Shown here: positions 45,944 to 50,320 of the stretch, piece after piece
Position numbering within the stretch: position 1 is the stretch's first letter
How the letters are laid out: the number at the start of each line of letters is the position of its first letter
Source of the DNA: Phreatobacter sp.
GTDB lineage: Bacteria > Pseudomonadota > Alphaproteobacteria > Rhizobiales > Phreatobacteraceae
DNA length: 64,000 bases
NCBI RefSeq assembly: GCF_022843985.1
Contig: NZ_JALHMP010000008.1
Coordinates: 62,001 to 126,000 of the forward strand
Reading direction: 5' to 3'
Position numbers and translations under genes: made by a program
Notes under the pieces: generated by a model
What the model saw: the letters and a program-made list of their open reading frames with translations, nothing else
Database searches by the model: none
What the model was told of the DNA's origin: nothing

Positions 45944-46978
45944 ATGCGCCTGTTCAAACTGCCCAGCAGTGCTTTTCGCGCAGAACCTGTCTCGCCGTCG
46001 CGGCGAAGCTTCCTGGCCACGGCCTGTGCCTGCTGCGCGGTCTGGGCTCTGGACCCGTCCCCGGCCCTGGCGCAGTCGCCGGAGGTCCAGCGCCATATTG
46101 CCGCTGCGCGCGAGGCAGCCGGCACCGACCTTCTGTCCTATTTCGGCCTCAGCCAAATTGCCGCGCCGACACCCGGACTGCGGCAGGTATCCCCGGACGA
46201 ACTGATGCGCATGCCGACACCGCCTCCGGGCCGGGCCTTCGACAATCTGTTTTTCGTCGGCAATCGCTGGGTCAGCGCCTGGGCGCTCGTGACGTCGGAC
46301 GGCATCATCCTGATCGATGCCATGGACAATGACGACGAGGCCGAACACATCATCGATGCCGGCATGCGCAAGCTCGGCCTCGACCCCAGAGCGATCAAGA
46401 TGGTTGTCGTCACCCATGGCCACGGCGACCATTATGGCGGCGTCGGCTATCTCAAGCGGCAGTACAATCCCCGGATCATCGCCAGCACGCTCGACTGGAC
46501 GATGATGGAGACCGCGCTGGAATTCGACCGGCCGGACTGGGGACGCCCGCCGCAACGGGATGTCGCGGTCGACGACGGTGCCGTGCTGCGCCTCGGCGAC
46601 ACCACCGTCGATGTGCTGCTGACGCCTGGCCATACGATGGGAACGATCTCGCTGCTGTTCAACGCCAGAAGCGGCGGGACAACCCATCGGGTCATGCTCT
46701 GGGGTGGCACGGCGTTCAATTTCGGCCGCCGGAGCGATCGCCTGACCCGGATCAATGCCTATATCGACGGAACAGAGCGGGCGCGGGAGATCGCGGTGCG
46801 CCAGAATGTCGACGTTTTCATCTCCAACCACAATATCTACGACCGGGCGGTCGAGAAGCTGGAGACCATGGGCCGTGGCGGCCCGAATCCTTTCGTCCTC
46901 GGCTCGGCCACCACCGTCCGCGCCCTGACGGTCATGAACGAATGCGCCAAGGCGACCCGCGTGGTCTGGTCGAGCTGA
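45944..46978 (+). CDS. MBL-fold metallo-hydrolase, Tat-exported
   Basis: A 344-residue protein with a leader SPSRRSFLATACACCAVWAL and ALAQ cleavage site, so it is probably periplasmic via Tat. The metallo-beta-lactamase core has THGHGDHYGG (His-x-His-x-Asp-His), TPGHTMGTISLLF for the next ligand, and FISNHNIYDR for the last His. The pattern resembles subclass B3-like enzymes, but substrate specificity, including any beta-lactam activity, cannot be inferred. It lies between the lysR regulator and the puc operon and is likely controlled by the former. Confidence 0.85.
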   Translation: MRLFKLPSSAFRAEPVSPSRRSFLATACACCAVWALDPSPALAQSPEVQRHIAAAREAAGTDLLSYFGLSQIAAPTPGLRQVSPDELMRMPTPPPGRAFDNLFFVGNRWVSAWALVTSDGIILIDAMDNDDEAEHIIDAGMRKLGLDPRAIKMVVVTHGHGDHYGGVGYLKRQYNPRIIASTLDWTMMETALEFDRPDWGRPPQRDVAVDDGAVLRLGDTTVDVLLTPGHTMGTISLLFNARSGGTTHRVMLWGGTAFNFGRRSDRLTRINAYIDGTERAREIAVRQNVDVFISNHNIYDRAVEKLETMGRGGPNPFVLGSATTVRALTVMNECAKATRVVWSS

Positions 46979-47177: not shown

Positions 47178-47206
47178 TTGACAGCCTTTTGTAAAAATAA
47201 TATTAC
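47178..47206 (+). promoter_or_regulatory. puc operon promoter (sigma70-type)
   Basis: A consensus TTGACA (47178-47183) is followed after 17 bp by TATTAC (47201-47206). It is the strongest promoter-like match I noticed in the window. The predicted start at about 47212 would leave a leader of about 250 nt before pucB. Confidence 0.7.
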
Positions 47207-47215
47207 GCTACTAAA

Positions 47216-47233
47216 TGTCACATTAAATTGACA
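47216..47233 (+). promoter_or_regulatory. PpsR/CrtJ-type operator
   Basis: TGTCACATTAAATTGACA fits TGTC-N10-GACA exactly, the binding pattern of the photosynthesis repressor PpsR/CrtJ. It lies just downstream of the predicted transcription start of pucB, where binding would block the promoter under oxygen or high light. Confidence 0.75.
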
Positions 47234-47460: not shown

Positions 47461-47622
47461 GTGGACAGTTTAGACGATCCAAACAGGGTCTGGCCAACGG
47501 GTCTGACCATCAAGGAGTCGGAGGCGCTGCACAGGCACGTCATCGACGGGGCGCGCGTCTTCTTTGCGATTTCGCTTTTCGCGCACATTCTTGTCTATAT
47601 CTACTCCCCCTGGCTCAAGTGA
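47461..47622 (+). CDS. pucB: light-harvesting complex 2 beta subunit
   Basis: A 53-residue antenna polypeptide missed by the ORF track because of its size. It starts with GTG, seven bases after GAGGGAG. It has a polar N-terminus, LTIKESEALHRHVIDGARVF with the conserved His24, and one membrane helix FFAISLFAHILVYIYSPWL with His42 as the bacteriochlorophyll ligand. The 18-residue spacing between these His residues matches LH2 beta chains. The N-terminal arm is about 12 residues longer than in Rhodoblastus acidophilus. The pucA gene starts 12 bases after its stop. Confidence 0.93.
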   Translation: MDSLDDPNRVWPTGLTIKESEALHRHVIDGARVFFAISLFAHILVYIYSPWLK

Positions 47623-47634
47623 CGGGGACCTCCG

Positions 47635-48036
47635 ATGAACAACGGTAGAATATGGTGCGTGGTCAATCCCACTGTCGGATTGCCGCTCTTCCTCGGCAGC
47701 GTCGCGCTGATTTCCTTCACGGTGCACTTCGCCGTGCTGAACAACACGACCTGGGTGGCCGACTTCTTCAAGGGCAAGTCGCGGACGACGGCACGCGCCG
47801 ACACCGCGCCGATTGTTCCGGTCGCCTTGCGTGCCGACGGCAACACCACGGTCGTCCTCAACATCGCTCCGACCGGCAACAGCGATGCCACCCGGCAGGT
47901 CATTGTGACGGTGACGCCGCAAGGGACGGCCAGCGTGGTGGACAGCCCGCCACGCGCAACCGCCAGCGCGACGGAAGGCTCGACCCGTGTGGTGGACAGT
48001 CCACCTGGGCGAATAGCCTTCGCCACACGAGAATGA
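47635..48036 (+). CDS. pucA: light-harvesting complex 2 alpha subunit with C-terminal extension
   Basis: The first 48 residues are a standard LH2 alpha chain. [17 protein letters not shown] supplies the formyl-Met side for B800, and the membrane helix has His31 as ligand for the B850-type ring. Trp40 is kept, but residues 44-45 are Phe-Phe, not the Tyr-Trp type that hydrogen-bonds bacteriochlorophyll acetyl groups. A further 85 residues, rich in Thr, Ala, Val and Pro with a repeated VVDSPP motif, extend into the periplasm. Typical alpha chains are 50-60 residues. Rhodobacter sphaeroides puc2A is a known extended case. Confidence 0.92.
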
Positions 48037-48289: not shown

Positions 48290-49687
48290 ATGAATTCGAT
48301 CAGCCAGAGAGCGATGAGGGCTTGGGTCGGGCTCGGGCCGCGCTTCCTGCCCTTTGCGGATGCCGCCTCTGCCGGGGTGCCGCTGTCGCGCCTGCTGCGC
48401 CTGTCGCTGGTTCAGGTCTCCGTCGGCATGTCGCTGGTGCTGATGGTCGGCACACTGAACCGCGTCATGATCGTCGAGCTCGGCATCTCAGCCGCCCTTG
48501 TCGCAACCATGATCGCGCTGCCTGTGCTGTTCGCGCCGTTCCGGGTCTTGATCGGCCAGAGTTCAGACACCCATGTGTCGGTGCTCGGCTGGAAGCGGGT
48601 ACCCTTCCTGTTCAACGGCACGATGGTGCAGTTCGGCGGGCTGGCCCTCATGCCCTTCGCGCTGCTCGTGCTGTCGGGCGGCGGTGCGGCCAAGGACTAT
48701 CCGGTCTGGATCGGGCAGGCCGCCGCGGCCCTGTCGTTCCTGCTGGTCGGAGCCGGTGTCCATACCACGCAGACTGTGGCTCTGGCGCTTGCCACCGACC
48801 TGACCCGCGATGACCGCCGGCCAAAGGTGGTCGGGCTCATGTATGTGATGCTGCTGGTCGGAACCATCGCCAGCGCGCTCACCTTCGGCTATTTGCTAGA
48901 GGAGTTCACGCCGGGCCGGCTGATCCAGGTGATCCAGGGCACTGCCGTGGTGACGATCGTGCTGAATGGCATCGCGCTGTGGAAGCAGGAGGGCCTGAAG
49001 CGCATGACGGCCGCCGAACTGGCCGCTCCGCAACCGCGCTTCCGCCACTCGTTTGGACGCTACATGCAGGGCAAGGCGGCGCGACGCCGGCTGGTTGCCG
49101 TCGGCCTGGGCACGATGGCCTTCGGCATGCAGGACGTGCTGCTCGAGCCCTATGGCGGCGAGATTCTCGGGCTCTCGGTCGCCGACACCACCAAGCTGAC
49201 CGCCGCCTTGGCGGGGGGCGGGCTGATCGGCTTCGCCGCGGCCTCGCATGTGCTGAGCCGCGGCGCCGACGCCTTCGCGATTGCGGGGCTCGGCACGCTC
49301 GTCGGCATCCTCGGCTTTGCCGGGGTGATCGCCGCGGCCCCGGCAGGCTCCCCCATGCTCTTTGCCGCGGGCGTCATCGTCATCGGTGCCGGCGGCGGCC
49401 TGTTCGGGCATGGCACTCTGACCGCCGCGATGAACCATGCGCCGGAGGGCCAGGCCGGGCTGGCGCTCGGCGCCTGGGGCGCCATCCAGGCCACCGCGGC
49501 CGGGCTTGGCATCGCCCTCGGTGGCATTCTGCGCGACGTGGCCATGTCGATGGGAGCGCTGGAAGGCCTTGGCGCGGCACGGGGCTATATGATCGTCTAT
49601 GCAACGGAAATCGTTCTGCTCCTCGCAACCTTCGCAGCGATGTCCTCGCTGTTTCGGCGCGCCGGGAACCAGAGCAGCAGAGGCTAG
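48290..49687 (+). CDS. pucC: PucC-family LH2 assembly / bacteriochlorophyll transporter-like protein
   Basis: A 465-residue membrane protein of the major facilitator-like BCD/PucC family with about twelve hydrophobic helices, required for LH2 assembly in other phototrophs. Family features include the N-terminal LLRLSLVQVSVGMSLVLMVGTLNRVMIVELG, GWKRVPFLFNGTMVQFGGLALMPFAL, and THTTQT-like VHTTQTVALATDLT segments. ATG 48290 is chosen with GAGG upstream, and the track frame runs back to 48062 without family sequence. It follows pucBA and precedes the repeat protein gene. Confidence 0.93.
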   Translation: MNSISQRAMRAWVGLGPRFLPFADAASAGVPLSRLLRLSLVQVSVGMSLVLMVGTLNRVMIVELGISAALVATMIALPVLFAPFRVLIGQSSDTHVSVLGWKRVPFLFNGTMVQFGGLALMPFALLVLSGGGAAKDYPVWIGQAAAALSFLLVGAGVHTTQTVALALATDLTRDDRRPKVVGLMYVMLLVGTIASALTFGYLLEEFTPGRLIQVIQGTAVVTIVLNGIALWKQEGLKRMTAAELAAPQPRFRHSFGRYMQGKAARRRLVAVGLGTMAFGMQDVLLEPYGGEILGLSVADTTKLTAALAGGGLIGFAAASHVLSRGADAFAIAGLGTLVGILGFAGVIAAAPAGSPMLFAAGVIVIGAGGGLFGHGTLTAAMNHAPEGQAGLALGAWGAIQATAAGLGIALGGILRDVAMSMGALEGLGAARGYMIVYATEIVLLLATFAAMSSLFRRAGNQSSRG

Positions 49688-49723: not shown

Positions 49724-50320
49724 ATGACACAGACAATCTGCAAACTTTTCGGCACGCCGAGCCAGGCGACAGAGGCTGCGGACAGGCTCCGAGCCACCGG
49801 CTATCGCCAAGTTTTCGTGTTTCTCGGTGCTCCATCCGGATCCGACGAGACAGAACCCGCAGCCGATCCGGGCGCCGTCAAGGCGATGATGGACGCCTAT
49901 ATCTACAAGCCCCACGCGGAGATCTATGCCCGTCACCTCGCCAAGGGCGCCAGCCTGGTAATGGTCCACGCCTATTGGGGCACCGCGCAGAAGGCGATCC
50001 GTCTGCTCAAGAGCTTCGATCCCCTGCCCGACGCCATCCCGAAACCGCCGATCCCAAGCCGCCTCATCTACAACCCGCGCACGCCGTTCTCGAGCACGTT
50101 CGAACTGCCGCTACTCACCGAGAAGGTGAGATATCCAGCCGAGACCATCTTTGGAACCCCTTCCCTGACCAGACGGCCGCGTCTGGTCACCTCCCGCCTG
50201 TTTCCGATCCTGTCGGGTGGCGCGTCACCGTTCTCCGGCCTGTTCAACCTGCCGCTCCTGACCAAGTCCAAGACCCCGTTTTCGTCGCTGTTCCGGCTGC
50301 CGTTGCTGAAGCGCCGGTAG
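49724..50320 (+). CDS. unrecognised puc-operon protein with PFSxLFxLPLL repeats
   Basis: A 198-residue protein 36 bases after pucC, likely in the same transcript. Residues 1-100 look like a small alpha-beta domain (QTICKLFGTPSQATEAADRL, then VFVFLGAP) of the YflT/general-stress-protein kind. Residues 120-195 carry three clear repeats, TPFSSTFELPLL (120-131), SPFSGLFNLPLL (168-179) and TPFSSLFRLPLL (184-195), plus two degraded ones between. The repeats are amphipathic and basic between units (RRPR, KSK, KRR). I do not recognise the family. Binding to LH2, pigments or the membrane surface is a guess from context. Confidence 0.75.
   Translation: MTQTICKLFGTPSQATEAADRLRATGYRQVFVFLGAPSGSDETEPAADPGAVKAMMDAYIYKPHAEIYARHLAKGASLVMVHAYWGTAQKAIRLLKSFDPLPDAIPKPPIPSRLIYNPRTPFSSTFELPLLTEKVRYPAETIFGTPSLTRRPRLVTSRLFPILSGGASPFSGLFNLPLLTKSKTPFSSLFRLPLLKRR

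Follow-up and report, generated by a model that had tools for sequence, protein, structure and literature searches.

Which light does an LH2 antenna absorb when its alpha chain carries phenylalanine at both residues 44 and 45? The question is raised by a puc operon in a stretch of 64,000 nucleotides (the window) from the genome of a freshwater Phreatobacter (contig 8, positions 62001-126000; 4.33 Mb in 53 contigs, assembly 100% complete). Four genes follow each other on the plus strand in the order pucB-pucA-pucC-gam, where gam is used as a label for an unnamed gene (Table 1). Directly upstream of the operon, a metallo-beta-lactamase-fold protein is encoded (45944-46978), which resembles subclass B3 models at scores far below the curated cut-offs.

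Table 1. Features of the puc locus with their positions in the window.
Feature	Position	Strand	Basis
PpsR/CrtJ-like palindrome pair, TGTAAAAATAATATTACG and TGTCACATTAAATTGACA	47190-47207 and 47216-47233	+	pattern search
pucB, LH2 beta chain, 53 aa, GTG start	47461-47622	+	PF00556 6.1e-9; best PDB match 7ze3_B 1.9e-23
pucA, LH2 alpha chain, 133 aa	47635-48036	+	PF00556 8.8e-11; 7ze3_A 1.2e-18; direct reading
PucA codons 41-45, Val-Ala-Asp-Phe-Phe, colour-tuning segment	47755-47769	+	direct reading, alignments
PucA C-terminal extension, residues 49-133	47779-48033	+	alignment
pucC, PucC-type transporter/assembly factor	48290-49687	+	PF03209 2.5e-141
gam, unnamed puc-operon gene, N-terminal domain and repeat tail	49724-50320 (longer ORF, GTG 49703)	+	conserved beside puc genes
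gam repeat tail, five tandem units with 15-17 residues each, TPFSSTFELPLLTEKV ... TPFSSLFRLPLLKRR	50078-50317	+	repeat analysis

The operon encodes an LH2 complex. Both chains scored above the Pfam cut-off for LHC (PF00556), His31 is present in alpha and His42 in beta, and pucC is adjacent. By alignment with the beta chain of Rba. sphaeroides (PMC8775250), His42 of PucB is the B850 ligand, while His24 and Arg32 form the B800 site. Since PucA and PucB align gaplessly to solved LH2 chains, the numbering of residues 44 and 45 is secure. Direct counting of codons located Ser27 at 47713-47715, His31 (CAC) at 47725-47727, Val41 at 47755-47757, Phe44 (TTC) at 47764-47766 and Phe45 (TTC) at 47767-47769; together with the alignment, this confirmed the His31 and Phe44-Phe45 that an earlier note had read from this DNA. 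None of the side chains at positions 41, 44 and 45 is a hydrogen-bond donor. Of five Phreatobacter puc loci that were read, four have Val41-Phe44-Phe45 (their full-length alpha chains are 80-86% identical to that of the window), and dN/dS of the PucA core was about 0.02-0.12 within Phreatobacter. Thus, Phe44-Phe45 is not a chance feature. The extension of about 85 residues, which is presumably periplasmic, was conserved in Phreatobacter and, to some extent, also in Elioraea (dN/dS about 0.24-0.29). An AlphaFold2 model of PucA with its tail had low confidence (pLDDT 54.5), with low-confidence strands in the extension. Many alpha chains of Rhodobacteraceae also carry a long C-terminal extension.

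The antenna genes belong to a genome equipped for phototrophy. In a profile search of the assembly, only a single puc pair and a single puf pair scored above the LHC cut-off. The search for further pucBA copies that the earlier note had proposed thus returned no others, and its caveat that other puc copies might dominate falls away, with a single pair in an assembly that is 100% complete. The puf locus encodes the reaction-centre L and M chains, and nitrogenase-like reductase subunits are encoded upstream of the reaction-centre genes; as expected, these would be chlorophyllide reductase. Phreatobacter has been counted among the aerobic anoxygenic phototrophs of Microcystis blooms (PMC11089705). 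The closest named relatives at the puc locus were Phreatobacter metagenome-assembled genomes, with full-length alpha chains 80-86% identical, and next came Elioraea. Within the genus, puc genes were patchy, occurring in 5 of 12 genomes. Phototrophy genes as a whole were likewise patchy in these genomes (G000-G011): some had puf and puc, one had puf only and several had neither.

In a comparison of nine LH2 structures, absorption was at about 850 nm with two hydrogen bonds to C3-acetyl groups, at about 825 nm with one and at about 800 nm with none (PMC9618040), and the characterised complexes that have lost the usual C3-acetyl donors are blue-shifted (PMC9618040, PMC8775250). Exciton coupling is also involved in spectral tuning, without a simple rule (PMC11440610). 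Two precedents lack these donors. First, PucD-LH2 of Rps. palustris (Val41-Phe44-Met45) has no C3-acetyl bonds and a single near-infrared band at 803 nm (PMC9618040; also PMC5783997). Its solved chains (7ZE3) were the best-scoring matches of both alpha and beta, and it shares with the window Val41, Phe44 and the lack of C3-acetyl donors; it differs by Met45 and Val27, in contrast to Phe45 and Ser27. Second, LH4 of the aerobic phototrophs Roseobacter denitrificans and R. litoralis (806 nm for Roseobacter) and Dinoroseobacter shibae (about 806 nm) carries Phe44-Leu45 and is a constitutive, sole peripheral antenna; for the Roseobacter LH4 with measured spectra, this motif is given as stated in a 2025 review (PMC12654162).

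The alpha chain of the window, with Val41, Phe44 and Phe45, has the donor-free set of positions of the LH4 (B800-only) type, whereas Val41 and Phe45 depart from the Tyr41 and Phe44-Leu45 of the B800-820 (LH3) type. With moderate confidence, its LH2 is therefore assigned to the LH4 type with a single band at about 800-810 nm. A blue shift had been predicted in the earlier note, and this part is well supported, both usual donors being lost. The range of 820-840 nm given there is probably too red, because the B800-820 complex that serves as precedent (Rbl. acidophilus 7050) has kept Tyr41 as a hydrogen-bond donor (PMC9618040 Table 1), whereas position 41 is Val here, as in the 803 nm case with zero bonds; the Phe44-Leu45 LH4 at about 806 nm likewise lies below that range. 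No absorption spectrum of Phreatobacter was found in the open-licence PubMed Central literature.

The Rhodobacteraceae offer a larger sample of this type. Among 30 LH2 alpha chains, 27 carried Ser27/Val41/Phe44/Leu45, two carried Ser27/Tyr44/Tyr45, which is the pattern of Rba. sphaeroides, and one had Tyr44-Leu45. Since 27 of 30 chains combine Ser27 and Val41 with Phe44-Leu45, these two residues belong with the blue-shifted LH4 type. Like the window, the sampled Rhodobacteraceae have Ser27/Val41/Phe44, a long alpha tail and gam behind pucC; they differ in Leu45 and in a gam repeat period of 25, compared with Phe45 and a period of 16.

The strongest competing reading is the one of the earlier note, i.e., a B800-820/830-type, LH3-like antenna with a band at about 820-838 nm (range 815-840 nm). 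It is unlikely, but it draws on measured spectra. The Tyr44Phe/Tyr45Leu mutant of Rba. sphaeroides absorbs at 826 nm (PMC9618040, PMC8775250) and the chain with Phe44 alone at 838 nm (PMC8775250), both with Ser27 present, and peaks at 821-837 nm are known from several aerobic phototrophs (PMC12654162). The double mutant is the main counter-evidence to the 800-810 nm band, and the 820-840 nm range survives mainly because of it. LH3 of Rhodoblastus acidophilus 7050 (1IJD) resembles the window in Phe44 and in the loss of both usual donors. However, natural LH3 retains Tyr41 (PMC9618040), whereas Val41 is shared with the PucD chain absorbing at 803 nm, and Val41-Phe44 is dominant in the Rhodobacteraceae, a family with reported LH4 spectra. 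LH3 of strain 7050 also differs by Leu45 and by being a low-light alternative to another LH2. The alpha chain of PDB 8z81 has Phe44-Phe45 and Ser27 like the window, but Tyr41. The band could also be displaced by the long tail of alpha or by the gam protein.

The operon might also be cryptic, with little or no LH2 made. The two palindromes upstream of pucB (Table 1) are relevant here. They conform to TGT-N12-AC(A/G), lie 26 bases apart from start to start and are located 228-271 bases before pucB; such a pair is what we take to be the PpsR/CrtJ pattern. Similarly spaced pairs were found upstream in L042, where the pair precedes pucB, and in Elioraea and L048, where the palindromes are 25-26 bases apart. 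The single motif was close to chance (seven exact TGT-N12-ACA in the window, 3.1 expected), and the evidence used is the conserved pair before pucB, not the window-wide count. As far as can be read from the DNA, a PpsR-type regulator may act at this candidate pair. The conservation of the palindromes and purifying selection on the core of pucA and on gam make a cryptic operon improbable. In its favour, Elioraea tepida possesses pucBAC, peaks only at 800 and 865 nm and has been suggested to be without LH2 (PMC8781829). However, a B800-only LH2 would be hidden in such a spectrum, and the case of E. tepida is therefore ambiguous. An LH2 of this kind is easily missed in routine whole-cell spectra, which may explain strains with pucBAC reported to be "without" LH2. 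The peaks of E. tepida would suit a B800-only LH2; this suggestion is based on the presence of pucBAC and the spectrum, and several Elioraea are Tyr-Trp.

A peak near 850 nm in spite of Phe-Phe, with hydrogen bonds supplied from elsewhere (by beta, by the tail of alpha or by gam), is very improbable: a bond does come from a beta-Trp in Phs. molischianum (PMC9618040 Table 1) and the beta chain of the window ends in a conserved Pro-Trp-Leu, but PucD beta also ends in Pro-Trp-Leu without restoring 850 nm, and no precedent was found that combines Phe44 and a non-donor at 45 with absorption there.

For the LH4-type reading, the following mechanism is proposed. The operon would encode the sole peripheral antenna of an aerobic anoxygenic Phreatobacter phototroph and, with the ligands present, would bind the normal B800 and B850 pigments. 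By homology, Val41, Phe44 and Phe45 would offer no hydrogen bond to the C3-acetyl group of either B850 bacteriochlorophyll. The acetyl groups would no longer be held in plane, site energies would rise and, judging from PucD-LH2 and the Roseobacter-type LH4, the B850 band would move to about 800-810 nm and merge with B800. Ser27 may keep a pigment anchored via its C13 keto group, as in Rba. sphaeroides. The gam product would be a probable accessory subunit, with its repeat tail running along the outside of the ring. Expression would probably be constitutive under PpsR-type control. The earlier note had supposed that the antenna is used under low light. PucD-LH2, one of five puc pairs, is made only in low light; the window genome, in contrast, has one pair and thus nothing to switch to, and the LH4 of the review is constitutive. 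The LH2 of the window is, thus, probably not reserved for low light.

Residues 44-45 varied among close relatives, and residue 27 went with residue 44 in most lineages. Four Phreatobacter loci were Phe-Phe at 44-45 and one (L043) was Tyr-Trp, while Elioraea loci were Phe-Phe, Phe-Trp or Tyr-Trp. In an unrooted PucC tree, L043 was placed inside the Phreatobacter clade as sister to a Phe-Phe species (support 100/99), and the Phe-Phe label required six changes, at least four of which are forced by well-supported branches; as the tree is unrooted, the direction of the changes cannot be read from it. Sequence comparison thus indicates switching between Phe44 and Tyr44 forms inside both Phreatobacter and Elioraea. 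In the first allele set, Ser27 was present in all 20 Phe44 alleles and Ala27 in eight of nine Tyr44 alleles. Ser27 and Phe44 changed jointly in five of six independent contrasts and never in the opposite direction (p=0.06). In Elioraea, L010 has Ala27 and Tyr44, and L011 has Ser27 and Phe44. Ser27 bonds the C13 keto group of a B850 pigment in Rba. sphaeroides (PMC8775250), and it may compensate for the lost acetyl bonds. Phe-Phe, Phe-Trp and Tyr-Trp on a nearly identical alpha chain within single genera constitute a natural series for hydrogen-bond control of LH2 colour. This series bears on possible compensation by Ser27 and on the gap between the 826 nm of the Rba. sphaeroides double mutant and the 803 nm of PucD.

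The fourth gene of the operon accompanies LH2 closely. For gam, no Pfam or NCBIfam family and, by sequence search, no PDB relative was found, nor was the family mentioned in the open-licence PubMed Central literature found. The family members comprised the window gene (49724-50320), L080-L089, L110-L117 and L152-L181. In the LH2 loci of Phreatobacter and Elioraea that were examined, relatives adjoin pucBA, and the same 5 of 12 Phreatobacter genomes carry gam and puc. Among 385 genomes sampled evenly from the class, ten non-self genomes gave a strong match (E below 1e-16), in every case next to pucBA; PucA matched in 11 non-self genomes, ten of which had gam (Fisher p about 6e-19, uncorrected for kinship of the genomes). 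In the Rhodobacteraceae, gam was present in 28 of 31 PucA-bearing genomes, usually about 2 kb away behind pucC, compared with one marginal match in 20 genomes without PucA. It was found in all 27 genomes with Phe44 and in one of three with Tyr44, the two Tyr-Tyr genomes lacking it. The gene order varied (pucBAC-gam, pucBA-gam-pucC or divergent). Between Phreatobacter species, dN/dS of gam was about 0.2-0.4 in both halves, indicating purifying selection.

The gam protein combines an N-terminal domain with a repeat tail. AlphaFold2 gave a pLDDT near 90 for residues 1-100 and below 50 for most of the tail. A fold search with the model returned PII/CutA-like matches (best E 0.07), which is suggestive only of a PII/CutA-type fold of the modelled N-domain, and some family members matched YflT weakly. 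Autocorrelation over 24 gam proteins gave an identity of 0.184 at lag 16 versus 0.081 for shuffles (z=19.9; z=18.0 at lag 32). The repeat consensus was N-P-[TA]-P-[LF]-S-S-x-[LF]-G-[LMWI]-x-x-L-[ST]-x, in which the P at the fourth position and the first S were fixed by the search anchor. Gam repeats of the Rhodobacteraceae had a period of 25 (z=23.6), and in five genera there were eight repeats spaced by 25, with one interval of 26, plus a degenerate last unit. This number invites comparison with a nonameric ring.

A repeat ribbon on the outside of LH2 has a precedent. The gamma ribbon of Rps. palustris LH2, reported only in Rhodopseudomonas, consists of 16-residue repeats, each with a serine ligating bacteriochlorophyll, and extends over six of the nine alpha-beta units (PMC9618040). 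This gamma (RPA1495; 7zcu_S), which PucD-LH2 also carries externally, showed 76% identity at lag 16. In gam, too, a serine-containing unit recurs in tandem every 16 residues, and the gene adjoins those of LH2, of which gamma is a subunit; unlike gamma, the gam protein has an N-terminal domain. Homology between the two was not found, as neither gam nor its profiles detectably matched 7zcu_S, which was present in the searched library. Because searches did not link them and the period varies within the family, as the 25-residue branch shows, the shared period is not taken as homology. By analogy, it is our hypothesis that gam works like gamma; that gam is gamma is not supported. Tentatively, and with more doubt than confidence, the gam family is proposed to be a gamma-type subunit that would wrap the LH2 ring with one repeat per alpha-beta unit and bind extra 800-nm bacteriochlorophyll, and would thus be part of a common architecture. 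If true, LH2 of many aerobic phototrophs has an overlooked third subunit, and Rhodopseudomonas gamma is one case of a general design. The main limit on novelty is the pucBACDE operon of Rhodobacter, with two further genes behind pucC (PMC9231093); in its position behind pucC, gam is compatible with PucD/PucE. A search with a Rhodobacter capsulatus PucA sequence gave best matches that were only 45-58% identical.

Further arrangements of the gam parts were observed. One Rhodobacteraceae genome (G664) has two different gam-type genes in tandem (L153 and L115); one has eight 25-residue repeats, the other is short. The N-domain alone occurs in the proteins L090-L093 and L120, several of which contain glycine-rich inserts; they occur in genomes that lack LH2 or at places away from it. 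An N-domain-only protein is also encoded in the window's own genome (C33).
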